Below the pieces are notes generated by a model. It did not search any database. It was given only the letters and a program-made list of their open reading frames with translations, and had not been told where the DNA came from. From positions 1 to 64,000 of the forward strand of contig NZ_JAIBES010000015.1 in the NCBI RefSeq assembly GCF_019459305.1: DNA of 64,000 bases, given 5' to 3'. Position numbers and translations under genes: made by a program. This document shows, piece after piece, positions 6,927-49,903 of the stretch. Positions within the stretch are counted from its first letter, which is position 1. Each line of letters opens with the position of its first letter. This stretch comes from Sphingopyxis sp. (GTDB taxonomy: Bacteria > Pseudomonadota > Alphaproteobacteria > Sphingomonadales > Sphingomonadaceae).

Positions 6927-7259
6927 ATGGAAATGATCAGGATTACGATACTCTACCCCGCCTCGGTGGGGGCGCGGTTCGACATGGACTATTATCTTGG
7001 CGTCCATGCGCCGCGGGCACTTTCGCGACTGGGTGGCGCCGTTGAGAGCTTCACCGTCGATGTCGGCATTCATGCCCCGCCGATGTCCGAGCCACTGTTC
7101 GTAGCGGCAGGACATTATCTGTGCGCATCCGCAGAAGAGTTCATGGCGGCATATCTGCCCCATGCAGCTGAATTGCAGGCCGATGTGGCGAACTACACCG
7201 ACATCAAACCGATCATTCAGGTCTCAGAGGTGAGGTTAGTGATTCCTGCTCAGTCTTAA
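6927..7259 (+). CDS. EthD family protein
   Basis: A 110-residue protein with the EthD pattern: an early strand ITILYP, then FDMDYYLGVHAP at about residues 19-30 in place of the family's F-D-xx-YY-xxxHxP. EthD proteins are small dimeric alpha+beta barrels that occur with oxygenases, such as those of ether degradation, but have no proven activity. Its 3' end overlaps the end of the convergent cysteine-rich gene by four bases. Together with NIPSNAP and ABM it is the third dimeric-barrel protein within 4 kb. Confidence 0.85.
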   Translation: MEMIRITILYPASVGARFDMDYYLGVHAPRALSRLGGAVESFTVDVGIHAPPMSEPLFVAAGHYLCASAEEFMAAYLPHAAELQADVANYTDIKPIIQVSEVRLVIPAQS

Positions 7260-7498
7260 TCACGCTTGTCCGCTGCCATCTGCGCCCTGACGGCCTTCTG
7301 GCACGATTCCGAAGCTTTCGAAAGGTTAGCGCGCAGGCAAACGCGCATCTTGTCCTGATCGCGCGCTGAAAATTCGGTAGGGCAAAGCTTCTGCATGTCA
7401 GAATAGCAGGCCATGCGAACTGCGAACTGAGCGTTTGCAGGCGCAGAGGCCCCTAATGTGGCGGCGCCAACAACGATAAAATAAACCAGTTTCTTCAT
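7256..7498 (-). CDS. Small secreted cysteine-rich repeat protein
   Basis: An 80-residue protein with a clear signal peptide (MKKLVYF...ANA, cleavage about residue 23). The mature part holds cysteines near residues 31, 39, 54 and 66, in the C-x(7)-C...C-x(11)-C spacing of the GLG1/Cys-rich repeat. It is periplasmic by inference. GGAG precedes the ATG. It is the last gene of the long leftward sulfide operon, 50 bases after the preceding stop. No function is known; the paired cysteines could form disulfides or bind thiol/metal. Confidence 0.75.
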   Translation of the reverse strand: MKKLVYFIVVGAATLGASAPANAQFAVRMACYSDMQKLCPTEFSARDQDKMRVCLRANLSKASESCQKAVRAQMAADKRD

Positions 7499-7548
7499 AA
7501 TAGTCTCCAGCTAATCGGTAACGTGTCGGCTGTGAAAATCCTTCGGAC

Positions 7549-8313
7549 CTATTTTGCAAAAGACGATATTTGGGTAACGCCTGAATTGCCGGTCTTTAGA
7601 TTCCGGGCGGTGACGTAGAGGATATAACGGCCCTTCATCGGAGCAGTTATCTGCCCAGCATAGCTACCGGGAGCTTCAACAAAAGCAAGCGGGGCGACAG
7701 CAATGCTGCTGCCGCGCTGCCAGGCAGAGACCTCAACATAATAATCCTTGGCATCCCACAGGCCTCCAGGCGTGATTGGGCAGCCGCACATCAGCTCGAC
7801 TTTGGCGGTGACGGCGATGCTTTTGACGCCATCTCCCTTGTCCAACTCAACCAGTCTCGCTGTCGGGCTGATCGCGAGGCCCGGCAGTTCCACTACCCAT
7901 CCGTCACCAATGTTGATAGGCTGGCCTGGCATGACCCATCGTTGCGAGACAATGCGGATTGTCGAGCCGGGCTTTGATTTGGGTCCGCTAACCTCCAGAT
8001 CGACCAATGTGGGCTTGCTTATGTCGACCCGTGTGACGAAAGCAGCTGCGTCCGAGGTCGAGCGCAACGGGCTGCGACCACTGGCTTGCATGATGAGCTT
8101 GGTGTCGCCCGTTCCGCCTTTCGTAATGCCGCGCGCGAGTATCCGACGCGTGTTGGCATCGCGCAGAACAATCTCGGCTCCGCCCATTGAATCCCCGATG
8201 AATTTAGCGTCCTGGCTGATCACGCGCACGACGACCTCGGTCGGCTCGGCGCGCAGCGTGGCGGAAAATACCGCTGCCGAAAGAATAAGGAGAGTTCTGA
8301 TCGCCATGCGCAT
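7549..8313 (-). CDS. Uncharacterised exported protein of the sulfide/bd-oxidase operon
   Basis: A 254-residue protein with a signal peptide (about residues 1-22) and a largely beta-strand mature part. A CGCP motif lies near residue 176, followed by WDAKDYYVEVSAW; the two cysteines are the only ones. I recognise no named domain. It starts 23 bases after the DUF2474 stop with AAAGG upstream, so it belongs to the bd-oxidase transcript. A periplasmic or membrane-associated role in oxidase assembly or persulfide handling is possible but unsupported beyond context. Confidence 0.7.
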   Translation of the reverse strand: MRMAIRTLLILSAAVFSATLRAEPTEVVVRVISQDAKFIGDSMGGAEIVLRDANTRRILARGITKGGTGDTKLIMQASGRSPLRSTSDAAAFVTRVDISKPTLVDLEVSGPKSKPGSTIRIVSQRWVMPGQPINIGDGWVVELPGLAISPTARLVELDKGDGVKSIAVTAKVELMCGCPITPGGLWDAKDYYVEVSAWQRGSSIAVAPLAFVEAPGSYAGQITAPMKGRYILYVTARNLKTGNSGVTQISSFAK

Positions 8314-8336
8314 CTATTGTACCTTTCAGGGGTGCT

Positions 8337-8441
8337 CTATTTGATCCAATAGCGGATGATACTCGCGACGATACCGAGCGCGCCGACGCTCATCACCCAA
8401 ATCGTGATCAACCACAGCAGCTGTTTCGCAGACTTGGGCAT
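8337..8441 (-). CDS. DUF2474 small membrane subunit of cytochrome bd oxidase (CydX-like)
   Basis: A 34-residue peptide starting MPKSAKQLLWLITIW with a single transmembrane helix, too short for routine gene finders. DUF2474 peptides are encoded directly after cydB in cyanide-insensitive-type bd oxidases and correspond to the small stabilising subunit (CydX/CydH-like). The ATG overlaps the cydB stop by one base (TGATG), so it is translationally coupled. The family is recognised by length, position and the LLWLITIW-x(6)-ALG pattern. Confidence 0.85.
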   Translation of the reverse strand: MPKSAKQLLWLITIWVMSVGALGIVASIIRYWIK

Positions 8442-9445
8442 CAATGATACCCGTCACTTCCAACTTTACCGCGAAAGACCCAGTAGGACCAGGCGGTATA
8501 GGCGAGGATAACCGGCACAAGCAGGCCTGCCCCCACCAGCATGAACAATTGGCTTTCGTAGGGGGCTGCCGCATCCCAGATTGACAGGCGTGCCGGAATA
8601 ACATTGGGCCAGATCGAAATGCCAAGCCCGATCAGGCACAGACCGAAAAGAGCGAGCGCCCAGAAAAATGGCTGCGCATCTTTTTGTTTCGCCAAACTCC
8701 GATAAAACAGAAAGGTAACGATAAGCGTCGCCAACGGGATCTGGGCGGTTGCGAGCACGCTCGGGAAGGTGAGCCAACGTGTGTAATATTGTGCCTCCAG
8801 CGTCAGCGTTGCCATGCTAATTACGCCAATGGTCAAAAGCAGAACAATGCAGAGCCGCCCGGCATAAGTGACCGCTTGCCGCTGCAGACCGCCTTCCGTT
8901 TTCCAGTTAAGCCAGCACGCACCGAGCAGTGCGTAGCCGACCATCAAGCCGACGCCAGTGAGAATGCTGAAGGGCGACAGCCATTCCCACCAGCCCCCGG
9001 CATAACCGCGGCCCTTGATCGTGATCCCTTGCAGGAGGGCACCAAGCGCGACCCCTTGCGCGAATGTTGCAATTGATGAGCCAGCGGTAAAGGCGCGGTC
9101 CCAGATTTCGCGGTGGTTTGGGTCTCGCCAGCGGAATTCGAACGCCACACCGCGCAAGACAAGCCCTAAAAGCATGGCAATCATTGGCGCATAAAGCGCG
9201 GGCAAGATGATGGCATAGGCGAGCGGAAAGGCTGCAAGAAGTCCGCCGCCGCCCAAGACCAACCAGGTTTCGTTGCCGTCCCAAACAGGCGCAATGCTAT
9301 TCATTGCCTGGTCGCGGTCGGGGCCAACTTTGAAGAAGGGAAAAAGGATGCCAATGCCCAGATCAAATCCGTCCATGATGACATAGAACATGATCGCAAA
9401 GCCGATTATGCCCGCCCAGATGACGGTAAGATCAAAGCTCATCAT
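8441..9445 (-). CDS. cydB: Cytochrome bd ubiquinol oxidase subunit II
   Basis: A 334-residue integral membrane protein with about eight hydrophobic segments and the family hallmarks YVIMDGFDLG near residue 25 and WDGNETWLV near residue 56. It pairs with subunit I to form the heme-containing quinol oxidase of the inner membrane. Its length (about 335) fits the cyanide-insensitive (CioB) class. The start overlaps the cydA stop; two adjacent ATG codons are possible (9445, 9442). Such oxidases tolerate sulfide, cyanide and NO, which fits the surrounding genes. Confidence 0.95.
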   Translation of the reverse strand: MMSFDLTVIWAGIIGFAIMFYVIMDGFDLGIGILFPFFKVGPDRDQAMNSIAPVWDGNETWLVLGGGGLLAAFPLAYAIILPALYAPMIAMLLGLVLRGVAFEFRWRDPNHREIWDRAFTAGSSIATFAQGVALGALLQGITIKGRGYAGGWWEWLSPFSILTGVGLMVGYALLGACWLNWKTEGGLQRQAVTYAGRLCIVLLLTIGVISMATLTLEAQYYTRWLTFPSVLATAQIPLATLIVTFLFYRSLAKQKDAQPFFWALALFGLCLIGLGISIWPNVIPARLSIWDAAAPYESQLFMLVGAGLLVPVILAYTAWSYWVFRGKVGSDGYH

Positions 9446-10848
9446 GCGGGTTGTCCTTCGATGACCGCAGGCGCAGGCGTAATCCCGGCGGCGCGCGTCG
9501 GGGTGCCGTCAAGACCGGTCTCATGCGCCTCGGGTGGTTTGGCCATCAGTTTGAACAGATACCAGACACCAGCGCCGAATACCGCAAAATAGACAATCAC
9601 AAAGGCAAGCAGTGAAAAAGCCACAGCGGGTGCGTCAAGTGGCGAGGCTGAATCACTGGTGCGCAGCAAACCGTAAATGGTCCAAGGTTGACGGCCCACT
9701 TCGGTCGTAATCCACCCGGCGAGTACGGCAATGAACCCAGACGGCCCCATCGCAACCGCCGCCTTGTGCATCAGCGGCCAGTCATAGAGCTTCTTGCGCA
9801 TCCGAGCGAGCAAGCTCCACGCCCCAAGCCCTAGCATGGCAAAGCCCAAACCGACCATCACGCGGAACGACCAGAAAACGATGCCGACCGGCGGTTCATC
9901 GGCGTCGGGAATAGTGTCGAGACCCTTCATCGGCGCGTTGAGATCATGTTTGAGGATCAACGACGAAGCCTTGGGAATCTCGATGGCATAATCAACGCGT
10001 TTTTCTTTGCTGTTGGGAATGCCGAACAAAATCAACGGCGCACCTTCGGGGTGGCTTTCAAAATGTCCTTCCATCGCCATGACCTTGGCGGGTTGATGTT
10101 CAAGCGTATTCAGCCCGTGCATATCGCCAAGGAATATTTGAACAGGGGCAACAATTGCCGCCATCCACATTGCCATCGAAAACATTGTGCGTGCGCCGGG
10201 ATTGGCGCGGTCCTTCAGCAAATGCCACGCACCGACCGCGCCGACCGCAAAGGCGACGGTCAGATAGGCAGCAGTCACAGTGTGAAGCAGGCGATACGGG
10301 AAGCTGGGATTCCAGATGATGTCCCACCATCCGGCGAGCGGGACAAACTGGCCGACATCATTGATTGTGTGGCCGACGGGCGTTTGCATCCAGCTGTTGA
10401 CGGAGAGAATCCAGAACGCTGAAATGAAAGTGCCGAGTGCGACCGCGCAGGTCGCCATGAAATGCAGCTTACGCCCTACCTTGTTGATCCCGAACAGCAT
10501 CACGCCGAGGAAACCTGCTTCAAGGAAAAATGCGGTCAGTACCTCATAAGCCATAAGTGGCCCGATCACCGGACCTGCTTTATCGGAAAACACCGCCCAG
10601 TTTGTGCCAAATTGATAGGACATGACGATGCCCGAAACCACGCCCATGCCAAAGACGATCGCAAATATCTTCAACCAGTAACGGAAGAGGTTCGCGTAAA
10701 CACCCTTGCCGGTTTTGAGCCACAATCCCTCCAACACCGCAAGATAGCTGGCAAGCCCAATGGAGAATGCGGGGAACAGGAAGTGGAAGCTTATCGTGAA
10801 AGCAAACTGGATGCGGGCAAGAACAATTGCGTCTAAATTGTCAAACAT
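9442..10848 (-). CDS. cydA: Cytochrome bd ubiquinol oxidase subunit I (short Q-loop, CioA-like)
   Basis: A 468-residue protein with nine predicted membrane helices. The N-terminal FHFLFPAFSIG contains the histidine ligand region of heme b595. The periplasmic quinol loop is short and the chain is under 480 residues, as in cyanide-insensitive oxidases. GRQPW near residue 379 is the conserved C-terminal motif. Nine bases separate it from the DoxX gene, placing the oxidase inside the sulfide operon. Bd oxidases reduce O2 to water with quinol and are little inhibited by H2S, allowing respiration while sulfide is present. Confidence 0.95.
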   Translation of the reverse strand: MFDNLDAIVLARIQFAFTISFHFLFPAFSIGLASYLAVLEGLWLKTGKGVYANLFRYWLKIFAIVFGMGVVSGIVMSYQFGTNWAVFSDKAGPVIGPLMAYEVLTAFFLEAGFLGVMLFGINKVGRKLHFMATCAVALGTFISAFWILSVNSWMQTPVGHTINDVGQFVPLAGWWDIIWNPSFPYRLLHTVTAAYLTVAFAVGAVGAWHLLKDRANPGARTMFSMAMWMAAIVAPVQIFLGDMHGLNTLEHQPAKVMAMEGHFESHPEGAPLILFGIPNSKEKRVDYAIEIPKASSLILKHDLNAPMKGLDTIPDADEPPVGIVFWSFRVMVGLGFAMLGLGAWSLLARMRKKLYDWPLMHKAAVAMGPSGFIAVLAGWITTEVGRQPWTIYGLLRTSDSASPLDAPAVAFSLLAFVIVYFAVFGAGVWYLFKLMAKPPEAHETGLDGTPTRAAGITPAPAVIEGQPA

Positions 10849-10857
10849 AGAGTCACC

Positions 10858-11301
10858 TTATCTTTCTATAACCTTATCGAGCGCATAAGCGCCAGGCCCG
10901 CGCGCCCAAAAGAACAGCAGCGCGCCAAGAATGGCGATATTCTTAAACAACGGGCCAACATGTGATGTGTCGGGCACGACGTGAATGGCGATGGTGACGG
11001 GGACAAGGGTCACAAACAGCACTAACGCCGAAATGCGGGTCATCCATCCCAGTGCCAGCGTCAACCCTGCCGCAACAAAAGCGATTCCAGACAACCAGAG
11101 CAATAGAGACGGGTCGCCGATCATTGCGACAGTGCCAGCCCAAGGTGACTCTACCATCCTGTCGAGCATCATCTGGTGCTGCCCAAAATGTCCCAACCCG
11201 CCGATGATAAAAATTAGACTGGTCAACACACGGAACACAAGGTCCACAATGGCGGCCGTTTTTGACCCGGGTGCTAACAGCCTCTCAATTTTACGTATCA
11301 C
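10858..11301 (-). CDS. DoxX family membrane protein
   Basis: About 147 residues with four hydrophobic helices. GGLGHF at the end of the first helix is the DoxX motif. DoxX proteins are small quinone-linked or redox-associated membrane proteins; some function with thiosulfate or thiol oxidation. The chosen GTG start overlaps the SulP stop by four bases (GTGA on the coding strand) and has GAAAGGGG upstream; an in-frame TTG seven codons earlier is possible. Position between SulP and the bd oxidase suggests a link of sulfur oxidation to the quinone pool. Confidence 0.8.
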   Translation of the reverse strand: MIRKIERLLAPGSKTAAIVDLVFRVLTSLIFIIGGLGHFGQHQMMLDRMVESPWAGTVAMIGDPSLLLWLSGIAFVAAGLTLALGWMTRISALVLFVTLVPVTIAIHVVPDTSHVGPLFKNIAILGALLFFWARGPGAYALDKVIER

Positions 11302-13064
11302 ATAATGCCCCTTTCGGCCCAAGGACCACAGACCAGAGGCTCATCGCCAGTTCCATCATCGAGGATCAATGCACTAAAAGCTTCGTTTTGCGACAAATAC
11401 ACCTTGCCACTCAGATCATGGAGCAGGTGCGAACGCTGCAGCGCATCCATCACAGGACCCTTCACCTCGGACAAATGAAGCTTGACGCCAGCGTCGGCGA
11501 GACGGTGATTGATCGCCTCCAGACTTTCGAGCGCCGATGCGTCAATCGCATTGACCGCCGAGCACATCAGAATGAGGTGCCGTAACTTGGGGTGCTCGGA
11601 GACCTCCTCCAGAACAAATTCTTCAAGCCAGCGGGCATTGAGATAGCTCAGTCCTTCGTCGATGCGGATCGTAAGAATATGCGGAACGGTTTGCACCTGG
11701 TGGCGTTTCACATTGCGGAAATGCTCGGTGTCAGGAACCCGACCGACAATCGCTGCATGTGGACGTGAGGCTCGCCACAAGAAGAGCGCTAAACTAAGGC
11801 CCACACCTGCAATAACGCCAGGCTCAACGCCTATAAGCAACGTCACCGCGATGGTTGTGGCCATTGCAGCAAAGTCCGGCTTGGAATATCGCCAAATGGC
11901 CCGCGGTGTTTTATAATCGACGAGGCTCAACACCGCGACAATGATTGTGCCCGCCAGTGTGGCAATCGGCAGCGAGGCGAGCAATGGCGTCAAGAAGAGC
12001 GCCGCCAGCAAAATGCCAATAGCGGTGAACGCGCCTGCTGCCGGTGTTTCGGCACCTGCATCGAAATTGACGACCGAACGCGCAAACCCTCCAGTTACCG
12101 GATATCCCCCTGAAAACGCCGCAGCGACATTGGCTGCCCCGAGCCCAATCAATTCCTGATCGGGGCGGATTCGCTGGCGCTTTTTGGCGGCTAAAGTTTG
12201 GGCAACCGAAACGGATTCGACAAAGCCGATGATACTGAGCAGCAGGGCAGGTATCGCCAACTGCTGCCAGAGTTCTGCATTGAACAACGGCATGGTAAAT
12301 GGCGGAAGGCTTTGCGGGATAGCGCCCACTACTTTGACACCCTTGGCTTCCAAATCAAACGCGATGACCGCGAGAATCGATAGACCAACAGCGACGATTG
12401 GTCCTGCCTTGGCCACTAGGTCGGCTGGACGTGCCGCAAGCCCCATATGAACCAATAAAGGTTTGAGACCTTTTCTTACCCAGAACAGGAAAGCGGTGGC
12501 AATGACACCAATGGCAAGCGTGTAGGGATTTGTATCCTTTGCGTTCTCGATCAATGTTGTGACAAGCTCAGGCATAGCCTCACCCGATGCCTTGATACCA
12601 AGAACAGATTTTAGCTGGCTGGTGGCGATGATAATGCCGCTCGCAGTGATGAAGCCGGACACCACAGGATGAGATAAAAGGTTCGCCAGAAAGCCAAGTC
12701 GCAGCACGCCCATGACCATCAGGATCACACCTGAAAGTAATGCCAGTATAAGGGTTGCAGCAATAAAGTCAGGGCTTCCCGGCGGGGCAACAGCGCTCGC
12801 CGCGGTAAGCGTCATCAGTGATATCACCGCTACTGGCCCGACCGCGAGCGCGCGGCTGGTTCCGAACAACGCATAAGCAATAATAGGAAGAATCGAAGCG
12901 TAGAGGCCAATCTCCGGCGGCAGCCCGGCCAGCATGGCATACGCCAGACTTTGCGGAATCAACATGATCGTGACGATCGCCGCTGCCACGAGATCGTTAG
13001 TCAGCGTTACGCCGCCATAGCCACGCCCCCATTCAAGGATTGGAAGATATTGCTTCAATTGCAT
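11298..13064 (-). CDS. SulP family anion transporter with STAS domain
   Basis: A 588-residue transporter. Residues 1-430 hold the SulP membrane core; the N-terminal signature PQSLAYAMLAGLPPEIGLYAS is at about residues 38-58. A cytoplasmic STAS domain occupies about 445-560. SulP members carry sulfate, bicarbonate or related anions. In this operon export of sulfite or sulfate, or uptake of sulfate, is plausible; direction cannot be read from sequence. It starts six bases after the fused oxidoreductase gene. Confidence 0.9.
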   Translation of the reverse strand: MQLKQYLPILEWGRGYGGVTLTNDLVAAAIVTIMLIPQSLAYAMLAGLPPEIGLYASILPIIAYALFGTSRALAVGPVAVISLMTLTAASAVAPPGSPDFIAATLILALLSGVILMVMGVLRLGFLANLLSHPVVSGFITASGIIIATSQLKSVLGIKASGEAMPELVTTLIENAKDTNPYTLAIGVIATAFLFWVRKGLKPLLVHMGLAARPADLVAKAGPIVAVGLSILAVIAFDLEAKGVKVVGAIPQSLPPFTMPLFNAELWQQLAIPALLLSIIGFVESVSVAQTLAAKKRQRIRPDQELIGLGAANVAAAFSGGYPVTGGFARSVVNFDAGAETPAAGAFTAIGILLAALFLTPLLASLPIATLAGTIIVAVLSLVDYKTPRAIWRYSKPDFAAMATTIAVTLLIGVEPGVIAGVGLSLALFLWRASRPHAAIVGRVPDTEHFRNVKRHQVQTVPHILTIRIDEGLSYLNARWLEEFVLEEVSEHPKLRHLILMCSAVNAIDASALESLEAINHRLADAGVKLHLSEVKGPVMDALQRSHLLHDLSGKVYLSQNEAFSALILDDGTGDEPLVCGPWAERGIM

Positions 13065-13070
13065 CGCGCG

Positions 13071-14651
13071 TTACGCCGTTGCTATCATGTGCGGATTTAC
13101 CATCCACTCACGTCCTTTGAGCATCCCGTGCCAATATATCGGCGGTAAAATTGTGTCCTTCAGAAGCCACGAAAGCCGCGAGGGCCTTGTGCCGTCGATC
13201 AACCAATTCGGGAAGCTGGGCAGCAGCTTGCCGCCATAGCCAAATTCAGCAAGGATGATCTTGCCGCGCTCAACAGTCAAAGGGCAGCTACCGTATCCGT
13301 CATAGTCGGCGACGGGTGGTTTACCTTCGAGTGCGGCCAAAACATTGACCGCGACTACGGGGGCTTGTTTGCGCGCGGCCGCCATTGTTTTCGCATTTGA
13401 CGCCGAGCAGGCATCGCCCAAGGCGAAGACATTGGGGTAACGTACATGCTGTAATGTCGCCTCATTGACCTCGATAAAACCGCTGGCGGCGGCAAGAGGG
13501 CTGTTGCGCACAAAGTCTGGCGCGACTTGCGGAGGGACGACATGGATCATGTCGAACTTTTCCTCGACCCGCGTGACAGTGTCTCCATTTTTCTGTTCGA
13601 ATGTAGCGATTTTGGCGGTGCCGTCGATTGCAACCAGCTTGGACTCAAAGTTCAAATGCGCTTTGTAGCGTTCTACATATTCCATGAGCGCGGGGACATA
13701 GGCAGCGACGCCGAACAAAACTGCGCCCGTGTTGTGGAATTGCACATCGATGTCACCAAGCACGCCTGCGCGTTCCCACGCACTGCACGACAGATACATT
13801 GATTTTTGCGGGGCACCCGCACATTTAATCGGCATGGGGGGCTGGGTGAACAGCGCGCGACCGCGCTTCAAATCCTTAACCAGGCGGTTGGTATAAGGTG
13901 CCAAGTCATAACGGTAGTTTGACGTTACGCCGTTCTTGCCGAGTGCTTCGCTCAAACCCGAAATGGCGTCCCAATCGAGCTTGACGCCAGGACAGGCTAC
14001 CAGCACCCGGTAGGACAGGGCGCTACCATCGGCGAGGAGCACCTGGTTATCCTCGGGCGCAAAACCAGAAGCCGCCTTTTTGATCCAGTCGACACCCTTG
14101 GGCATGACTGACTTTTCAGTACGCTTGGTGAATTCAGCCGAGAAAATGCCCGCACCAACCAACGTCCATCCAGGCTGATAATAATGCTCTTCTGATGGCT
14201 CGATAACAGCGATCTTCAATTTGCGATTACGATTGAGGAGGCTGGCCGCTGTCGCGATGCCGGCGCTGCCGCCGCCAACGATGACCACATCATAGATTAT
14301 GCTCGGCACTGCCACGGGCGCGGTCGTTTTCGCCATTTCCCAAATTTTGCCACTGCGCGCGCCTGAGCGGCAATAGGCCAGTATGGGTTTTGGCAATTCC
14401 GCCAGTTTGTCTGCCATCAAAACTGCATCTGCCGGTGTCACGCCAGTCGACATGACCGGCACATAAGCAAAGGCAAGGCCTTCCTTTTGTGCAGCTGCCC
14501 TGACTACAGCTGCATCGGGTTGGTCGTCTGCTTCGCCATCGGGGCGATTGCAGATTATCGATTTGAAGCCCTGCGCGGCTGCTATGGCAAGTTCAGCAGG
14601 TAAAATTTGAGGCGAGACGCTGAAATCTGCCGATAATGTTTTGATGTCCAT
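13071..14651 (-). CDS. DUF442 (phosphatase-like) fused to SQR-type FAD oxidoreductase
   Basis: A 526-residue two-domain protein. Residues 1-110 form a DUF442 / protein-tyrosine-phosphatase-like domain with CRSGARSG at about 94-101 (catalytic cysteine loop). Residues 120-526 form a sulfide:quinone oxidoreductase-like flavoprotein with the dinucleotide motif VGGGSAGIATA at about 125-135 and a later GDACSASNAK segment. SQRs oxidise sulfide to persulfide and pass electrons to quinone. DUF442 is best known fused to a persulfide dioxygenase (BLH); here it is fused to the SQR and the dioxygenase is separate. ATG 14651 follows GAGGA; GTG 14654 is an alternative. Confidence 0.88.
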   Translation of the reverse strand: MDIKTLSADFSVSPQILPAELAIAAAQGFKSIICNRPDGEADDQPDAAVVRAAAQKEGLAFAYVPVMSTGVTPADAVLMADKLAELPKPILAYCRSGARSGKIWEMAKTTAPVAVPSIIYDVVIVGGGSAGIATAASLLNRNRKLKIAVIEPSEEHYYQPGWTLVGAGIFSAEFTKRTEKSVMPKGVDWIKKAASGFAPEDNQVLLADGSALSYRVLVACPGVKLDWDAISGLSEALGKNGVTSNYRYDLAPYTNRLVKDLKRGRALFTQPPMPIKCAGAPQKSMYLSCSAWERAGVLGDIDVQFHNTGAVLFGVAAYVPALMEYVERYKAHLNFESKLVAIDGTAKIATFEQKNGDTVTRVEEKFDMIHVVPPQVAPDFVRNSPLAAASGFIEVNEATLQHVRYPNVFALGDACSASNAKTMAAARKQAPVVAVNVLAALEGKPPVADYDGYGSCPLTVERGKIILAEFGYGGKLLPSFPNWLIDGTRPSRLSWLLKDTILPPIYWHGMLKGREWMVNPHMIATA

Positions 14652-14673
14652 CACGATTCCTCAATCCTAGTTA

Positions 14674-15084
14674 TTATATTTTCGCAAATCTGTGCACGAT
14701 CATTCCGGCCAGCATGGCAACCACAAAGACAAGCGCAGGACCTGTCGCGAGCGCCAGATCGGCAATTGCTGGACCGGGACATAGCCCACCAATTCCCCAG
14801 CCTGCGCCAAAGAGGACAGCACCGATTGCAAGCTTGCTGTCAATCTTGCTCGTTCCCGGTAGATCAAATGTATCGCAGGCAACCGGCTGCGCCATGCGTT
14901 TCTGGAAGACCCAAGCGATCGCCATCGGGAGGATGGCTCCGCCCATGACAAAGGCGAGTGTTGGGTCCCAGTTTCCTGCAATGTCGAGAAACGCCTGGAC
15001 GCGGGCAGGATCTGACATACCGGAATAAGCAAGCCCCGCACCGAATAGCAGGCCAGACATCAAGGCAATGACGTGGCGCGCCAT
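14674..15084 (-). CDS. DUF6691/YeeE-type half transporter, subunit B
   Basis: A 136-residue membrane protein with four hydrophobic segments and the invariant GGLCPGPAI at about residue 97, the cysteine motif of the YeeE/YedE sulfur-transport family. Two such half-size proteins (this and 15329-15769) normally act together as a thiosulfate or persulfide-related importer or exporter (PmpA/PmpB type). The ATG 15084 lies one base after the DUF2892 stop; earlier in-frame starts would overlap that gene. Confidence 0.85.
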   Translation of the reverse strand: MARHVIALMSGLLFGAGLAYSGMSDPARVQAFLDIAGNWDPTLAFVMGGAILPMAIAWVFQKRMAQPVACDTFDLPGTSKIDSKLAIGAVLFGAGWGIGGLCPGPAIADLALATGPALVFVVAMLAGMIVHRFAKI

Positions 15085-15085
15085 A

Positions 15086-15286
15086 TTATGATTTCCCACG
15101 CGTCGAAAGGCCGAATGGCAAATATAGCGGGCAGGTTCCGAAAAGGCTGGTTAGCGCAAAAGCGACGGCGCCAATCCCGAGCACGATCGCCAAGGTTCCA
15201 GAAAGAAGGCCCATGAACCATGCCGCAGCGATCGCAGCGACAACAACCAGACGGAGCAGACGGTCTAAGCGGCCCATATTATTCAT
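15086..15286 (-). CDS. DUF2892 (YgaP membrane-domain) protein
   Basis: A 66-residue protein with two hydrophobic helices and the FGTCPLYLPFG ending typical of DUF2892, the membrane part of the rhodanese YgaP without the rhodanese. It opens with the usual MGRLDRLLR after a short leader. It lies between the two YeeE-type halves. Such proteins commonly accompany persulfide genes and may pass sulfane sulfur at the membrane through the conserved cysteine; this role is inferred. Confidence 0.85.
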   Translation of the reverse strand: MNNMGRLDRLLRLVVVAAIAAAWFMGLLSGTLAIVLGIGAVAFALTSLFGTCPLYLPFGLSTRGKS

Positions 15287-15328
15287 CGCCGTGTCCTCTC
15301 AATTTTGGAGTACATTCAAACATCTTAA

Positions 15329-15769
15329 TCACAGTATTCCGGCGGCGCGCATCACGCCCACCGTTGCCAAGCCGCTTCCCATGAACATTGCGGTTGCGGC
15401 TAACGATCGTCTGGAAAGCCGCGACAAACCGCACACACCGTGACCGCTTGTGCACCCGGAGCCCATCCGCGTTCCGAAACCCACCAGCAAACCTCCAATC
15501 ACAAGCGGTAGCGGTGATGCCGGAAAGCTGACGGCGACTGGGCCGTTGAAGAACGCGACGAGCGCGGCACCAAGCGGCAAGCCGATAATGAAGGCGATTG
15601 CGATCCCGCGCGGCGCGCCGGTATCCGCTATTCCTGTCGCCCGCGCCGCCATGCCGCTTACCCCGGCAATGCGGCCCAAGCCCAAAAGCATGATCGCCGC
15701 AGACACGCCTATCAGGATTCCGCCGATCAGCCCCTCAACAGGCATCGCTTGAGGAAAGCCGGGCAGCAT
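15329..15769 (-). CDS. YeeE/YedE-type half transporter, subunit A
   Basis: A 146-residue membrane protein with four hydrophobic segments. The signature GSGCTSGHGVCGLSRLSRRS lies at about 103-122, containing the cysteines that bind thiosulfate sulfur in the YeeE family. Its ATG overlaps the stop of the dioxygenase gene (TGATG). With DUF6691 it should form the two halves of a sulfur-compound transporter in the inner membrane. Confidence 0.88.
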   Translation of the reverse strand: MLPGFPQAMPVEGLIGGILIGVSAAIMLLGLGRIAGVSGMAARATGIADTGAPRGIAIAFIIGLPLGAALVAFFNGPVAVSFPASPLPLVIGGLLVGFGTRMGSGCTSGHGVCGLSRLSRRSLAATAMFMGSGLATVGVMRAAGIL

Positions 15770-16686
15770 CAGAGAACATCCAACGGGATTTTGAGGAAGC
15801 GCGTTCCGTTGGCTTCCGGCTCAGGCAAATGGCCCGCGCGTATGTTGACCTGGATCGATGGCAGGATCAGCTTGGGCATTGACAGGGTTGCGTCGCGAGC
15901 ATCGCGCATCGTCACAAAGTCGTCCTCGCTTACGCCTTCGTGGACATGAACATTACCGACCCGCTGTGCGCCAACGGTTGTTTCCCAGGCAAAATTGTCA
16001 CGACCGACCGCTTTGTAGTCATGGCAATGGAACAGCCTTGTCTGGTCGGGTAGCTCCATTAGGCGGCGGATCGAACGAAAAAGCATCCGCGAGTCACCAC
16101 CAGGAAAGTCAGCGCGCGCGGTCCCGTAATCCGGCATGAATAAGGTGTCACCCGTAAACACTGCGTCGCCAACGACATAAGCAAGGTCGGCGGGAGTATG
16201 GCCGGGAAGGTGAAGAACGGTCGCTTTGATCTCACCAATATGAAACTGGTCTCCGTCTTCAAAAAGATGGTCAAATTCAGAGCCGTCTCGTGCGAACTCT
16301 GTGCCCTCGTTGAAAATTTTTCCGAACACACTTTGAACGTGGATAATCTCACGACCGATGGCGATTTTGCCGCCGAGCTTGTTCTTTAAATAGGGGGCAG
16401 CGGACAGGTGATCGGCGTGCGCGTGCGTTTCGAGAAGCCAATCAACCGCAAGGTCCTTCTCCCCAGCATAGGCAATGATTGCGTCTGCCGAAGAGAAGGA
16501 CGTGCGACCCGAAGCGGCGTCATAGTCGAGCACGCTATCGATGATAGCAGCCCGCTTGCTCTCGGGATCGTGGACGACATAGCTGACCGTATTGGTCGGC
16601 TCGTCGAAAAATGATTTGATAACGACGCTATCCGACGGCGTTGCCGCAATCTGCGCTGATGCTTGCTGAATTACCGAGTCGGTCAC
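15769..16686 (-). CDS. ETHE1-like persulfide dioxygenase (MBL fold)
   Basis: A 305-residue metallo-beta-lactamase-fold protein with THAHADHLSA at about residue 89 (HxHxDH) and GHTPADLAYVVGDAVFTGDTL at about 163-183, the second iron-ligand histidine region and aspartate of ETHE1-type enzymes. These non-heme iron enzymes oxidise glutathione persulfide to sulfite. It is the first gene of the leftward operon. The start is a GTG with AGGAG six bases upstream. The operator palindrome lies 24 bases before it. Confidence 0.88.
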   Translation of the reverse strand: MTDSVIQQASAQIAATPSDSVVIKSFFDEPTNTVSYVVHDPESKRAAIIDSVLDYDAASGRTSFSSADAIIAYAGEKDLAVDWLLETHAHADHLSAAPYLKNKLGGKIAIGREIIHVQSVFGKIFNEGTEFARDGSEFDHLFEDGDQFHIGEIKATVLHLPGHTPADLAYVVGDAVFTGDTLFMPDYGTARADFPGGDSRMLFRSIRRLMELPDQTRLFHCHDYKAVGRDNFAWETTVGAQRVGNVHVHEGVSEDDFVTMRDARDATLSMPKLILPSIQVNIRAGHLPEPEANGTRFLKIPLDVL

Positions 16687-16710
16687 CAGTATCTCCTGAT
16701 TAATTCATGT

Positions 16711-16727
16711 TTACATAAACTATGTAA
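16711..16727. promoter_or_regulatory. Palindromic operator between the divergent sulfide operon and peroxiredoxin-bigR genes
   Basis: TTACATA (16711-16717), spacer AAC, TATGTAA (16721-16727) is a perfect inverted repeat in the AT-rich 105-base gap between the divergent starts at 16686 and 16792. Symmetric AT-rich sites of this kind are bound by SqrR/BigR repressors. An overlapping smaller palindrome, GTTTA-CA-TAAAC, is at 16709-16720. Binding by the protein encoded at 17421 is inferred. Confidence 0.65.
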
Positions 16728-16791
16728 TATACTATCTACGCTGCGTCAATAGGATCGCGATGACAGCAAATCGAAAAAGCAGGATGACATT

Positions 16792-17424
16792 ATGACCGAG
16801 GCAATTGTGCAGTCGATTTCGCCGATAAGGATGGGGGATAAAGCTCCCGATTTTCGGGCGCGAACGACGATGGGAGAGAAATCGCTCGCTGATTTTCGTG
16901 GGCAGTGGCTCATTTTTTTTTCGCACCCAGCCGATTTCACTCCGGTCTGCACTACTGAGTTTCTGGCTTTGGCAAGGGCCGTGGATCGGTTTGAAGCGGC
17001 GGGATGTGCACTACTCGGCCTCTCTGTGGACAGCCTCTATTCCCATCTGGCTTGGGTCCGCGCGATTGAAGATCAGCATGGGATAAAAATACCGTTTCCC
17101 ATAGTTGAAGACCCGAGCATGGCAGTGGGCCGCGCCTATGGCATGATCGATGAGACAGCCGTTGATAGTACAGCGATCCGCTCAAGCTATTTTATCGACC
17201 CCGAAGGCGTTGTGCGGGCATCAACATGCTATCCGCACAATGTTGGCCGCTCGGTTGCTGAAATGCTGCGACTGCTCTGCGCATTGCAAGCCGTTTCCGA
17301 CGGCAAGGGGCTTACACCTGAAGGTTGGCAAAACGGTGACCCATTGCTTGCTCTTCCGGCAGCTACGCTCTCAGAGATGCTCCCTGGGCAGGGCTGGTTT
17401 TGTCAGAAAGTCGAAACCAAATGA
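16792..17424 (+). CDS. 1-Cys (Prx6-type) peroxiredoxin
   Basis: A 210-residue peroxiredoxin with the peroxidatic motif PADFTPVCTTE; the catalytic cysteine is C53. The length and long C-terminal part fit the Prx6/AhpC-like 1-Cys group. It reduces peroxides; some members also react with per- and polysulfides, which would fit the neighbours. It is divergent from the persulfide operon and overlaps the regulator gene by four bases (ATGA), so the two are co-transcribed and probably autoregulated. A second homologue of different sequence lies at 43329-43958. Confidence 0.92.
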   Translation: MTEAIVQSISPIRMGDKAPDFRARTTMGEKSLADFRGQWLIFFSHPADFTPVCTTEFLALARAVDRFEAAGCALLGLSVDSLYSHLAWVRAIEDQHGIKIPFPIVEDPSMAVGRAYGMIDETAVDSTAIRSSYFIDPEGVVRASTCYPHNVGRSVAEMLRLLCALQAVSDGKGLTPEGWQNGDPLLALPAATLSEMLPGQGWFCQKVETK

Positions 17425-17819
17425 AGGCGCTCTTTGAGAGCCGTGCCCATGCCGTGGTCGCTGCAGACAAACTTAAAGTCTATGCACAGCCGCAAAGGCT
17501 AATGATCCTATCCTGCCTTCTGCGCGGCGAGCATACGGTGAGTGAGATTGATGCTGTAACGGGCATAGGTCAACCCGCGCTTAGTCAGCAACTGGCCGAA
17601 CTGCGCCGAAACGAACTTGTTAGAACGCGTCGGGTGTCGAAACAGATTTGGTATGATCTTGCTGATGACAAAGTGCGTCTCTGCGTGCGCAGCATGGAAG
17701 TCATACTGGGCGATAACCACGATCTCGAAGTCGCATTGGGTGAGGTAATCACTTCCCCTCCTTTGAAAAAGGACATCAAACGTCCGGCTGGAGCAGCCAG
17801 TTTTGTCAAAATTCTCTGA
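17421..17819 (+). CDS. bigR: SqrR/BigR-type persulfide-sensing ArsR repressor
   Basis: A 132-residue winged-helix protein. From ATG 17421 the two key cysteines are C32 (in LSCLLRGEH, helix before the HTH) and C88 (in RLCVRSME, C-terminal helix). These positions match the cysteine pair that forms a tetrasulfide bridge in SqrR/BigR. The recognition region is GQPALSQQLAELRRNELV at about 50-67. It should repress the divergent sulfide operon until persulfides oxidise the cysteines. The start overlaps the peroxiredoxin stop; a TTG at 17400 is possible but has weaker support. Confidence 0.85.
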   Translation: MKALFESRAHAVVAADKLKVYAQPQRLMILSCLLRGEHTVSEIDAVTGIGQPALSQQLAELRRNELVRTRRVSKQIWYDLADDKVRLCVRSMEVILGDNHDLEVALGEVITSPPLKKDIKRPAGAASFVKIL

Positions 17820-17853
17820 TCGAGCGCTCGGCTTGAAGCTGTTGATGCCGCAA

Positions 17854-18570
17854 ATGAGCAAGCGCTGCATTCACGTGCAACACGTGCCCAATGGAGGGTG
17901 GCGCAGGAAGCTTTTGGCCCCTTTGCTGATCAGCGCATTTCCAGCACATGCGTCCGCTTCTGAACCTGATACCGAATATTGGGCGGGTGTGTCCGCTTCG
18001 GGTTCGATAGGCGGTCACTGGCTTGGCTCGGCAGAAATATCGGTCCGTTCTGATGATGCGCAGATGCGGCAACCCACGACCGTTCTCCGGCCAATGATTG
18101 GCTATCAATTGCATAAGAATGCAAGTGTGTGGATAGGCTATACCAGAGTTGAGCAGCATCCTGACAACGGTTCGCAGATTGCGGAAAATCGGTTGTCCCA
18201 ACAGGTGAGTTTGAACTTGGGGAAAATTGGCAATGCTCATTTTTCTGCGAGAACGCGGATCGAGCAACGGTCTTATGAGAAGGTTCATGGCACTGCTTGG
18301 CGTATCCGGCAGCAACTCAGGCTGGCGATGCCTCTTCAGTCTGACCGGGCTAGCTTCATCATATCGACAGAGCCATATTTTACGCTCCGTACAAATATCT
18401 CAGGCAGCAATAGCGGGTTAGAGCAATGGAGAAATTTCATCGGCGTCAATGTCCCCGTGACGAAAAGCGTAGCGCTCGAAGCTGGATATCTCAATCGGTA
18501 CATCAAACGCCGCAACGCGCCGAACCGGGTCGACCACATTTTCCCCGTCACTCTTTCGTATCGCTTTTGA
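17854..18570 (+). CDS. DUF2490 outer-membrane-type protein
   Basis: About 238 residues with a signal peptide (basic WRRK then hydrophobic LLAPLLISAFPAHASA). The mature beta-rich protein has alternating aromatic and polar residues and ends in YRF, a terminal aromatic typical of outer-membrane barrels. The pattern fits DUF2490, unstudied outer-membrane proteins. It follows the regulator closely on the same strand. The start is uncertain: TTG 17803 and ATG 17845 are in frame, and no strong ribosome site is seen. Confidence 0.7.
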   Translation: MSKRCIHVQHVPNGGWRRKLLAPLLISAFPAHASASEPDTEYWAGVSASGSIGGHWLGSAEISVRSDDAQMRQPTTVLRPMIGYQLHKNASVWIGYTRVEQHPDNGSQIAENRLSQQVSLNLGKIGNAHFSARTRIEQRSYEKVHGTAWRIRQQLRLAMPLQSDRASFIISTEPYFTLRTNISGSNSGLEQWRNFIGVNVPVTKSVALEAGYLNRYIKRRNAPNRVDHIFPVTLSYRF

Positions 18571-18628
18571 TGGCCATTGCGAAGAACGTGATGGGCATAG
18601 CAAGGCGGCCCTGGAAAGGAGAGTGATG

Positions 18629-19882
18629 ATGCCATTCACCAACCACAAAGACCGGGAAGGGGTTGTTTCCGAACTGCATCTGCGCCGAATGCCTGCGTTG
18701 GCAGCGCCGTTGCGGATGATTCAGATATTGCGGGTTGTAGCATCTGATGATCGGGCGGTTGAGGCCTTGCATGTCGCGGCCATGCCGATCGCGCAAACAC
18801 ATATCAGACAAAGTGACCGCCATGTTGATGGTTGCAGCAACGAGGGTATCGAATTTCTTTGGGAGCAGCAAAGCGAAGCAAGCACAGCAACAATCATTCT
18901 TCCGGGTGCCGGCATACACCCATTTGTTGTAGCAGAGCATGAAAATGCTGCGATGAACTGGCTATATGAAGCGCCCGGTGAAGTGCTTCGCGCCATTCGT
19001 ATCGAGATTGTCGAAGATGACCTAATAGCGGACGCCATAATAAACGAAGACATTTTCGAGCGGGACAATCTGGTGAGTTGCCGCGTACCTGGCGGAGCGC
19101 GCTTCTGGTCGGACTTCAAACTCGGCCAAGATGGATTCGGCCGTTTGCTGGTCGCCGCCAACGGTATGTCAGCCTTCGATCTGGGCAGGGCTGTGCAACG
19201 CTTTCAGGAATTGGGGAATTATCGCAACCTGGCTCTGCTGGGGTTAAAAGTAACGCAGACGAACAGCCCTGAACTAGCCGTCCGTGAGGCTAAGTTGCTT
19301 GAGATTAGCGAAAAGATCGTGGTCGCCGACCACGACGACCTGCTCCTTGACGCACTCATCGATCTTGCCGCGCGCACGACTGCTCTGAATGCGCAAACAG
19401 CGTACAGGATGAGTGCCACAGAGGCATATAGCGAAGTCGCGCTGCACCGATTGCACGCACTGCAGGCCGAACCCATAGCGGGTTATCAAACGCTGGCGGG
19501 CTTTACCGAAAGGCGGCTGCTCCCCGCTGTAAAGACATGCCGCTCGTTTGGGATCAGGCTTGAATCATTGGCACAGCGTATTGAACGAGCAACTGCGCAG
19601 CTCAGAACGCGAATAGAAATGCGCATTCAAAATCAAAATAGCGAGATGCTTGCGTCGATGAACGAGAGCTCTGCGCGCCAGTTGAAACTTCAGCATCTGG
19701 TGGAAGGCCTGTCGGTGGTTGGTGTAAGCTATTATGTGGTGGGGCTCATCGCCTATATGGTCAAAGCTGTTGACCCAGTGTTAGTGGGTATTGATTCCAA
19801 CCATATCGTAGCATACGCGACGCCCGCAGTTATTATGGTTGCGTGGTTCTATCTGCGTCGCCGCATGAACAGGACGCGATGA
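18629..19882 (+). CDS. DUF3422 family protein
   Basis: A roughly 417-residue protein recognised as DUF3422 from overall pattern: an N-terminal region with repeated short strands, a central helical part, and two membrane helices near the C-terminus (about residues 365-385 and 395-410) ending in RRRMNRTR. DUF3422 proteins are inner-membrane anchored and of unknown function. AAGGAG at 18616-18621 favours ATG 18629 (or 18626). It follows DUF2490 by about 60 bases on the same strand. Confidence 0.75.
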   Translation: MPFTNHKDREGVVSELHLRRMPALAAPLRMIQILRVVASDDRAVEALHVAAMPIAQTHIRQSDRHVDGCSNEGIEFLWEQQSEASTATIILPGAGIHPFVVAEHENAAMNWLYEAPGEVLRAIRIEIVEDDLIADAIINEDIFERDNLVSCRVPGGARFWSDFKLGQDGFGRLLVAANGMSAFDLGRAVQRFQELGNYRNLALLGLKVTQTNSPELAVREAKLLEISEKIVVADHDDLLLDALIDLAARTTALNAQTAYRMSATEAYSEVALHRLHALQAEPIAGYQTLAGFTERRLLPAVKTCRSFGIRLESLAQRIERATAQLRTRIEMRIQNQNSEMLASMNESSARQLKLQHLVEGLSVVGVSYYVVGLIAYMVKAVDPVLVGIDSNHIVAYATPAVIMVAWFYLRRRMNRTR

Positions 19883-20145
19883 TGGTTAGAAAAGCGGCGG
19901 TAACGGGACACCATTTAGACGTTTTCAGCGATCAGTACCGAAGCATCCAAGCCCCACGCCGGGATTTTTCCGTCATTGGTAAAAAAACAGGTCGCGATAC
20001 CGCATTTTTAGAAAATACGGAACGCAGCCCAGCTTCAGCTTTTGCGTGTCTCCACCAAACCAGCTGTTTGAATGATCCAAAACGCTTTGCCACCGCCCAT
20101 GTCACCAAAACGTCTCCGCGCCTCGGTGTTTGGGGAGTAACAGCT

Positions 20146-20574
20146 GTGGGTGATTTCAAACCCGAACATGTGGCTGAAGAACCCGCCCCAATGCTGCCGG
20201 TTCACCAGAAGATAACGGAACATCTCGCCGCCGAGCGCACTTTTCTCGCATGGATAAGGACATCGGTAGCGATCATCAGCCTTGGCTTTGTAGTAGCCAA
20301 ATTCGGCTTGTGGCTGCATGAGCTTGCGAGCCGATTTGACCCAGACCTTAAAACGTCGGGAACAGGAGCATCACTACCCATCGGGGTCAGCATGATGGTT
20401 TTTGGTAGTCTAATTGCCATATTGGCTGCGTGCCATTTCTTTTTGATCGAGAGGGCAATCGAGCGCGGCGACTTTAAATCCAACCGGCAAATGGTCATTG
20501 GGACGTCAGCCGGGATCGTCCTGCTATCGGTCGCCATCATTGGCTATCTTGTACTCACAACAGTCTATTTATAA
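20146..20574 (+). CDS. DUF202 (YidH-type) membrane protein
   Basis: About 142 residues. The DUF202 signature LAAERTFLAWIRTSVAIISL begins near residue 26, followed by two further hydrophobic helices near 80-100 and 115-140. DUF202 proteins are small inner-membrane proteins of unknown role. The frame is open back to 19843, inside DUF3422. I chose GTG 20146 because GGGGAG lies eight bases before it; ATG 20191 is the alternative. The upstream open part has no protein-like pattern. Confidence 0.8.
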   Translation: MGDFKPEHVAEEPAPMLPVHQKITEHLAAERTFLAWIRTSVAIISLGFVVAKFGLWLHELASRFDPDLKTSGTGASLPIGVSMMVFGSLIAILAACHFFLIERAIERGDFKSNRQMVIGTSAGIVLLSVAIIGYLVLTTVYL

Positions 20575-40731: not shown

Positions 40732-43293
<2,562 letters not shown>

Positions 43294-48793: not shown

Positions 48794-49900
48794 ATGAACT
48801 CAAAACGCTACCTTATCGTCCTCGCCCTCCTCGTTATTGCAGGCGCATGGGGCTGGTGGGCACGTGATCGCGGCGAAGACAACGCGGCGACCTCAGCGCA
48901 AACCAAGGTGGCTCCAGGCGTATTGACAGCCAGCCAGATCAGTCGTCTCGGTATTAAGACTGCGGTCGCGATCGAGACCGATGCCACATCTTTGGGCTCA
49001 GTTCCCGCAATCGTCACCCTCCCGCCGGAGGCGCGGGTCGCGGTAACAGCCCCGTTCACAGGCTCGGTCATCAGGCTTTACGTTGTGGTTGGACAAGCGG
49101 TCAGGCGCGGACAACCGCTTGCCGTATTGCGCAGCCGCGAACCACTGCAATACGGTGCCGAGCTTGCTCGTGCACAGGCCCGTTTAGGGCTTGCACAGGC
49201 AAGTGCAGCACGCACGGGGCAACTCGCCCGGGAAGGCATTGTAGCCGGGGCAAGAGCAGATGAAGCACAGGCATCGCTCCGCCAGGCGCAGGTAGACGTT
49301 AGCGAAAACAACCGCGTTCTTGCTCAATCGGGCGCTGGCGCCAATGGCGAGATTGTGTTGCGCGCGCCCATTACGGGCCGATTGGCACTGATCAATGTTC
49401 AAACCGGTGGCCCCGTCGACGGAATGACAGCACCCTTCGTTGTCGAAAACGATGCGTCGTTCATGCTTGATCTACAACTGCCCGAACGGATGGCCAACAG
49501 TGTCTTCCCGGGTATGCAGGTTGAGGTTCCGGTACCCGGGGGCGCACCAATCATCGGCAGCGTGGTTTCGGTGGGAAGTTCGATCGATCCTGCAACCCGG
49601 TCAGTCCTCGCCAAAGCCCGGATCGGCGCTGCGCCGATGCTGGTCAGCGGAAAGAGCGTGATGGCGGTCCTCAAGGGTAAGAGCCAGATCCCCGGCACGA
49701 CCGTTCCGGCGGCCGCAGTCACACGGATTGGTGACAAGGATATGGTTTTCGTAAAAACCAGGACAGGCTTCGTAAAGCGCGTCGTCACGGTGTCGGGCCG
49801 AATCGGTGAGCAGGTTTTGATTTCCGGCGGTATCAAGCCTGGCGAGCATGTGGCGACCTCTGGAATTTCGGAACTCAAAGTCATTCTGAGTGAGGGTTAA
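48794..49900 (+). CDS. RND periplasmic adaptor subunit (CzcB/CusB-like)
   Basis: A 368-residue membrane-fusion protein with an N-terminal anchor helix (about 5-23), a barrel-sandwich/lipoyl domain (VTAPFTGSVIRLYVVVGQ near 77 and LRAPITGRLALINVQTGG near 194), and a helical hairpin between them. It bridges the inner-membrane pump and outer-membrane channel. No histidine- or methionine-rich N-terminal metal motif is seen, which leaves the metal undefined. It starts the three-gene CzcCBA-type operon (4, then overlapping by 4 bases). Confidence 0.9.
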   Translation: MNSKRYLIVLALLVIAGAWGWWARDRGEDNAATSAQTKVAPGVLTASQISRLGIKTAVAIETDATSLGSVPAIVTLPPEARVAVTAPFTGSVIRLYVVVGQAVRRGQPLAVLRSREPLQYGAELARAQARLGLAQASAARTGQLAREGIVAGARADEAQASLRQAQVDVSENNRVLAQSGAGANGEIVLRAPITGRLALINVQTGGPVDGMTAPFVVENDASFMLDLQLPERMANSVFPGMQVEVPVPGGAPIIGSVVSVGSSIDPATRSVLAKARIGAAPMLVSGKSVMAVLKGKSQIPGTTVPAAAVTRIGDKDMVFVKTRTGFVKRVVTVSGRIGEQVLISGGIKPGEHVATSGISELKVILSEG

Positions 49901-49903
49901 CCC

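Follow-up and report, generated by a model that had tools for sequence, protein, structure and literature searches.

Sulfide poisons haem-copper oxidases, so that burning it requires an oxidase that survives. Among the described sulfide and persulfide systems, the BigR operons of Xylella and Agrobacterium presumably combine an ArsR repressor, the two YeeE halves and a dioxygenase and, to our knowledge, hold no sulfide:quinone oxidoreductase (SQR), bd oxidase or peroxiredoxin. Here we describe a cluster of twelve genes in which predicted enzymes of sulfide oxidation and a cytochrome bd oxidase stand side by side, opposite a divergent peroxiredoxin gene and an ArsR-family regulator. It lies in a stretch of 64,000 nucleotides of Sphingopyxis sp. 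(hereafter the window), part of the 88,001-base contig NZ_JAIBES010000015.1. The cluster is probably a single transcription unit for aerobic sulfide detoxification behind an ArsR-family repressor.

In Escherichia coli, unlike in the window, cydAB is, we assume, not part of a sulfide operon. Loss of YgaV, a SqrR/BigR homologue of that species, raises cydAB counts (PMC9774250; this and the other papers cited by PMC number are represented here by excerpts). The yeeE-yedE-pdo2 BigR operon of Acinetobacter baumannii shares with the window an ArsR repressor, a persulfide dioxygenase and the YeeE halves (PMC7315123). The window departs from the BigR operons in its regulator, which lacks the cysteine pair discussed below, and in its DUF442 domain, which is fused to SQR and not to the dioxygenase. 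The FisR operon of A. baumannii and the cst operon (CstR) of Staphylococcus aureus are alike in another respect, in that SQR, a dioxygenase and a TauE exporter share one operon (PMC7315123). Unlike in the window, the A. baumannii cydAB genes (A1S_1433-1434) are separate from A1S_1708-1711 and FisR is a sigma54 activator; sulfide induces cydAB in this organism, and a link between SQR and CydAB through quinone has been predicted (PMC7315123). Finally, Sphingopyxis granuli TFA, also a sphingomonad, has SQR/sulfurtransferase operons and cydAB that are both induced by anoxia, but the excerpt lists its cydAB as SGRAN_0615-0616, away from SGRAN_0593-0601 (PMC6472365).

The physiology that joins sulfide and bd oxidase is thus already known in outline, and the new parts are the single operon and its sensing. 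In the literature cases it is regulation that connects sulfide oxidation and bd oxidase, whose genes lie at separate loci, whereas here they form one plasmid-capable unit, a variant of the known sulfide operons with its own oxidase lineage. No SQR-cydAB single operon was found described among the open-access literature matches listed, in the portions of text available. With both functions in one operon, the predicted electron route from SQR to CydAB becomes directly testable by gene deletion.

Gene content of the cluster

Twelve genes run leftward from 16686 to 7256 in a single direction. The gaps between them, in transcription order, are -1, 42, -14, 19, 6, -25, 9, -4, -1, 23 and 50 bases, in agreement with the first-pass annotation of this DNA, which had placed twelve leftward genes at these coordinates with at most 50 bases between neighbours. 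Only nine bases separate doxX from cydA, the DUF2474 gene overlaps the cydB stop codon by one base, and the terminator-like sites that the window scan listed on the minus strand include none within any gap of the cluster. The genes, together with the two on the opposite strand, are the following.

15769-16686, minus strand: predicted ETHE1-like persulfide dioxygenase, metallo-beta-lactamase (MBL) fold (Pfam Lactamase_B; PDB and NCBIfam matches)
15329-15769, minus strand: YeeE/YedE sulfur transporter half 1 (Pfam Sulf_transp, 38.2 bits)
15086-15286, minus strand: DUF2892/YgaP-like membrane protein, YgaP-like_TM (Pfam PF11127, 60.7 bits)
14674-15099, minus strand: YeeE/YedE half 2, DUF6691 (Pfam PF20398, 141 bits)
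13071-14654, minus strand: DUF442 (BLH_phosphatase) sulfurtransferase domain fused to predicted SQR, Pyr_redox_2 (Pfam PF04273; human SQR alignment)
11298-13064, minus strand: SulP-STAS anion transporter (Pfam SulP and STAS; NCBIfam name sulfate permease)
10858-11322, minus strand: DoxX membrane protein (Pfam PF07681, 38.4 bits)
9442-10848, minus strand: CydA, short Q-loop type (Pfam, 552 bits)
8441-9445, minus strand: CydB (Pfam, 325 bits; TIGR00203 above cut-off)
8337-8441, minus strand: DUF2474 protein of 34 aa (Pfam PF10617, 32.2 bits, cut-off 26.6)
7549-8313, minus strand: 254-aa beta-sandwich protein, probably secreted, with invariant Cys-Gly-Cys (model; relatives near sulfide genes)
7256-7498, minus strand: 80-aa Cys-containing protein, probably secreted (weak Cys_rich_FGFR match below cut-off)
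16792-17424, plus strand: divergent peroxiredoxin, AhpC/TSA (Pfam, 119.6 bits; NCBIfam PRK13189, 215.4 bits, cut-off 211)
17421-17819, plus strand: ArsR-family regulator with the SqrR fold, lacking the canonical Cys pair (alignment, structure match, tree)

The recognisable identities proposed at first pass were all recovered as Pfam families above cut-off. The dioxygenase aligns with solved MBL-fold structures at very low E values (9g8t, 2.9e-116; 4ysk and 4efz, also below 1e-107), among which we take there to be assayed dioxygenases, and with human ETHE1 (4chl) at 2.2e-15, so that it is probably a persulfide dioxygenase (ETHE1/PDO). It also matches the dioxygenase part of the NCBIfam model Blh at 398 bits, below the full-length cut-off of 625. 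Jointly, the dioxygenase and the DUF442-SQR protein hold the parts that are single-chain in Blh, the DUF442 domain sitting here at the N terminus of SQR. The SQR itself matches the human enzyme (E 6e-88), and the motifs KCAGAPQK and SCPL, whose cysteines are presumably the SQR redox cysteines, are both aligned; this and the FAD fold point to a sulfide:quinone oxidoreductase.

The last two proteins of the cluster, described earlier as secreted unknowns, have indeed no Pfam family above cut-off, and their secretion is probable from N-termini judged by eye. Relatives of the 254-aa protein occur in 17 of 296 genomes of the order (the window's own counted), where the Cys-Gly-Cys is invariant and where some of them adjoin a dioxygenase, a peroxiredoxin-ArsR pair, SulP-cydA or an FccB-like gene. 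Its predicted structure is a confident beta-sandwich (pLDDT 90.7), for which Foldseek gave no function and nothing better than poor matches to other beta-sandwiches (TMq at most about 0.34, root-mean-square deviation (rmsd) at least 13). Some versions of the operon also encode a Tll0287-like protein with a CxxCH motif, placed either ahead of cydA or behind doxX and the 254-aa gene (L009, 10664-11272; L163, 10650-11426; L numbers denote loci and G numbers genomes). In several relatives the operon includes another peroxiredoxin, distinct from the first (about 38% identity) and close to cydA, doxX or the gene of the 254-aa protein (L009, 8803; L015, 6738-7412; L189, 759-1385); none was seen in the window operon.

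Linkage of SQR and cydA and the lineage of the oxidase

Relatives of the window SQR (E up to 1e-60) and CydA were sought in 147 genomes drawn evenly from the order Sphingomonadales. SQR was found at 41 places in 37 genomes and CydA at 65 places in 62, and 25 genomes had both genes. In 19 of these 25, the window's included, the two genes are at most 10 kb apart, and in all 19 cydA is on the SQR strand and downstream; by our own estimate (20 kb in about 3.3 Mb) chance would link them in fewer than one genome, the 19 being kin and not 19 independent events. A further set comprises 79 SQR loci (L003-L081), 54 of them with enough flank, that were picked by their likeness to the window SQR. This set is biased, as are the CydA tree, regulator and locus counts derived from such loci, while the samples of the order and the class are even. 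A downstream, co-directional cydA at 44% identity or more is found in 25 of the 54. The operon order appears in loci of this set from Caulobacterales, Brevundimonas, Maricaulis, Rhizobium and Shinella. Locus L055, which is gammaproteobacterial, has the order dioxygenase-SQR-SulP-CydA-CydB with a CydA only 49% identical. In four sphingomonads (L047, L059, L067, L068) distant CydAB-like genes (about 30%) lie on the opposite strand, 2.6-3.5 kb from SQR, possibly an independent pairing of the two.

Sphingomonads and some of their relatives carry close versions of the operon, on chromosomes as well as plasmids. When the operon was compared with plasmids by megablast, only fragments matched, and a protein search gave 75 records at E up to 1e-100; four plasmids, two from each search, were examined in detail. 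In three of them the operon order is annotated with TauE/SafE for SulP: a plasmid of Sphingobium sp. WTD-1 (conjugative type; DUF2474 not listed), pSA3 of Novosphingobium resinovorum SA1 (mobilizable type) and a plasmid of Sphingobium sp. CFD-1 (mobilizable type; no DUF2892). The fourth, pMSHV of S. herbicidovorans, has cydAB-TauE-dioxygenase and peroxiredoxin-ArsR, with no SQR at the locus. The window itself carries genes for a ParB-like protein, a NikA-like protein (below the curated cut-off), a relaxase and a coupling protein of type IV secretion. Conserved gene order in relatives and on other plasmids, on which the first-pass annotation had staked its proposal, was found for SQR and cydA in 19 of the 25 genomes of the order that have both genes and for the operon on three sphingomonad plasmids (with TauE for SulP), and it supports the idea that SQR, dioxygenase, transporters and bd oxidase form one physiological unit.

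The window CydA keeps H22, H189, M331, E102, E110, K255, E260, E383 and GRQPW (alignment to 6rko; 112 CydA rows), which we take to be haem ligands and quinol-site residues, and is by this measure a cytochrome bd oxidase subunit. It does not belong to the long Q-loop type of E. coli, of which residues ~311-379 have no counterpart here. The 34-aa DUF2474 protein is presumably a small CydX-like subunit. In a tree of 102 short-Q-loop CydA sequences (distant long-Q-loop rows below 44% identity and short rows left out), the window CydA falls in a clade of 26 rows (support 96), 24 of them SQR-linked, and the SQR-linked label changes 19 times on the tree compared with 33.7 when shuffled; many of the rows came from the SQR-likeness loci, which inflates the linked share. 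Six genomes of the order sample fall in this clade: four are linked (G000, G080, G100, G131), the CydA of G031 is within such an operon where SQR was not detected, and that of G123 stands alone. The second CydA of the host (47% identity) groups elsewhere, in a distant clade whose rows are mostly unlinked.

The control region, the regulator and the peroxiredoxin

Two elements of the region between the dioxygenase and peroxiredoxin genes were retained.

16711-16727, no strand: operator-like dyad TTACATAAACTATGTAA, which shares bases with the predicted leftward -10 (16721-16726)
16744-16749, minus strand: conserved TTGACG box, predicted -35 of the leftward promoter; TGCGTCAA in 41 of 59 intergenic regions

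The best match to the dyad has at most one mismatch in 27 of the 59 regions (1 of 295 shuffles) and at most two in 39 (4 of 295), with three or more in the other 20; the regions, which include several near-copies, had been viewed before the pattern was picked, and the shuffles are a home-made approximation that keeps dinucleotides. At two mismatches about one site is expected by chance in the window. Since the dyad overlaps a hexamer 17 bases from the TTGACG box, it occupies the position expected of a repressor site. A consensus promoter scan gave four sites (5.7 expected) and did not list the predicted leftward promoter, the prediction of which therefore rests on conservation.

The regulator most likely starts at the ATG at 17421, overlapping the stop codon of the peroxiredoxin. 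Its modelled fold is that of ArsR winged-helix proteins of the SqrR, HlyU and BigR kind (SqrR 6o8k: Z 15.6, rmsd 1.7, 93 aligned, model residues 6-98 on chain 16-108 without gaps), a match that is not specific, since the other ArsR proteins CzrA and SmtB tie within 1 Z. The sensing cysteines of SqrR are, we assume, C41 and C107 (alpha2 and alpha5); in the 6o8k alignment these positions fall on S38 and G104 of the regulator (139-aa numbering). The sequence alignment with SqrR and BigR agrees for S38, and Rhizobium-type relatives have Cys at both positions. The two cysteines that the regulator does have are at 39 and 95. It reaches 75.9 bits with the NCBIfam BigR equivalog, for which the cut-off is 155. 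The missing alpha2/alpha5 pair and the missed cut-off speak against the SqrR/BigR persulfide-sensor label that the first-pass annotation had given it, and the plain label is rejected here. All known persulfide sensors of the SqrR/BigR family cluster have the alpha2/alpha5 pair as their sensing site, according to the excerpt of the work on them (PMC10509353). Departures from it are possible, since RexT, another ArsR protein, senses peroxide through a different cysteine pair (PMC8960804).

Regulators near a dioxygenase make up 64 rows, of which 12 show the canonical pair, 36 are of the Cys95 type, seven have one canonical Cys and nine none of these. L178, a copy of the window, was skipped and four rows far from a dioxygenase were set aside (L056, L061, L063 and one of L083); the duplicate pairs L012/L093 and L062/L100 are still included, and a row counts as canonical when it has C38 and any Cys at 100-106, a generous rule that works in favour of the known mechanism. 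In the regulator tree the canonical pair is found in none of the 49 rows on the window side of a branch with support 95 (38 Cys95, nine none, two half); this tree has few columns, a midpoint root and weak inner forks, and leaves out L178, L012, L100 and L056. Such a group poses the question of how a repressor senses sulfur stress in the absence of a known thiol switch. One possible, though doubtful, answer is that the regulator is an ordinary persulfide sensor in which Cys39 and Cys95 act as a shifted dithiol. Within the 36 rows of the Cys95 type, 20 (the window is one of them) have both cysteines, but the remaining 16 have F, Y, L, R, S or A in place of Cys39 despite the operon start and the peroxiredoxin, and seven related regulators are free of cysteine altogether.

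The peroxiredoxin gene, left out of the earlier description, is found before the regulator on the same strand in 63 of the 64 rows (61 by script, plus L031 and L065, hidden by an over-long open reading frame); the sole row without it, L088, has the canonical pair. Its product, which we take to be Prx6-like, keeps Cys53 in 75 of 75 aligned sequences. We put forward, quite tentatively, a two-protein switch, in which the peroxiredoxin co-made with the repressor would meet the persulfide or peroxide and alter the cysteine-poor or cysteine-free ArsR protein by relay or contact. If true, this would be a mode of ArsR sensing that uses neither kind of site described so far, dithiol or metal. The peroxiredoxin also accompanies 11 of the 12 canonical regulators, which speaks against its being a simple replacement. 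No prior peroxiredoxin-ArsR relay was seen in the titles and abstract starts of the literature matches listed.

How the operon may work, and competing explanations

If the twelve genes are a single transcription unit, the ArsR-family repressor would bind the dyad over the leftward promoter and keep the operon off, and sulfur stress would lift the repression. SQR would then hand the electrons of sulfide to quinone, the fused DUF442 domain and the dioxygenase would convert the persulfide to sulfite or thiosulfate, and the products would be moved by YeeE/DUF6691 and by SulP, or TauE in relatives. With haem-copper oxidases poisoned, the short-Q-loop CydAB-DUF2474 would use O2 to oxidise the quinol. 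Because the host genome also has two PF00115 (COX1-family) genes, a sulfide-tolerant respiratory branch of this kind would matter to it.

Several observations weigh against this reading. In 289 genomes drawn evenly from the class, SQR and cydA are within 10 kb in only eight of the 29 genomes with both genes, and the operon order was seen only within the order, in the window genome and G019; of the other linked genomes two are divergent (G225, G341) and four have gaps of 1.6-8.6 kb, with cydA upstream in G173 and G395. On the CydA tree 56 of the 102 rows are labelled unlinked, the same family also standing alone. Among the 79 SQR loci doxX is present in three and relatives of the 80-aa protein in none. 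The regulator is devoid of the known persulfide-sensing site. Genome-wide (3,971,920 bases) the dyad has a single site at one mismatch or fewer, but so does the reversed control pattern, and the uniqueness of the dyad proves little by itself. One promoter-like site inside sulP leaves room for internal promoters, although such sites are at chance level. The control site of the reversed dyad and the sampling bias of the CydA tree have slightly lowered our confidence in a single unit. Lastly, 26 of the 54 SQR loci have no cydA within 10 kb and three have only a distant convergent one. The cydAB module is therefore optional, yet repeatedly joined to sulfide genes, and what had been called a self-contained sulfide-survival package is a conserved unit for which "self-contained" is too strong.

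A sulfur-acquisition or lithotrophic role, in which sulfide would provide energy and SulP, YeeE and DoxX would import sulfate or thiosulfate and not export waste, appears unlikely. In its favour, SulP carries the name sulfate permease, thiosulfate uptake is a function of YeeE proteins in E. coli, and DoxX is part of the thiosulfate:quinone oxidoreductase of some archaea. However, in relatives the SulP slot is occupied by TauE/SafE, named sulfite exporters, as confirmed with Pfam in all four loci scanned (L017, L029, L041, L062) and annotated on the four plasmids, an interchange which suggests that both would export the end product. That cydAB-DUF2474 is a captured passenger serving low-oxygen growth from its own promoter, co-localised with the sulfide genes and not co-regulated, is improbable: the loci devoid of cydAB, the solitary members of the same CydA family and the separate, anoxia-induced cydAB and SQR operons listed for S. 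granuli TFA (PMC6472365) speak for it, but the nine bases between doxX and cydA and the identical order and strand in all 19 linked genomes of the order speak against it, and the two divergent arrangements and the gammaproteobacterial operon suggest repeated association.

Outside the cluster, the rightward message may run beyond the regulator into genes for DUF2490, DUF3422 and DUF202 proteins (17803-20574), the first of which begins inside the regulator end; DUF2490 and DUF3422 had no match within the SQR-likeness loci. Farther along the window are a peroxidase-family (KatG-like) gene (40732-42948) and an RND efflux pair (48794-53014), which suggest a wider stress-resistance cargo on the element.

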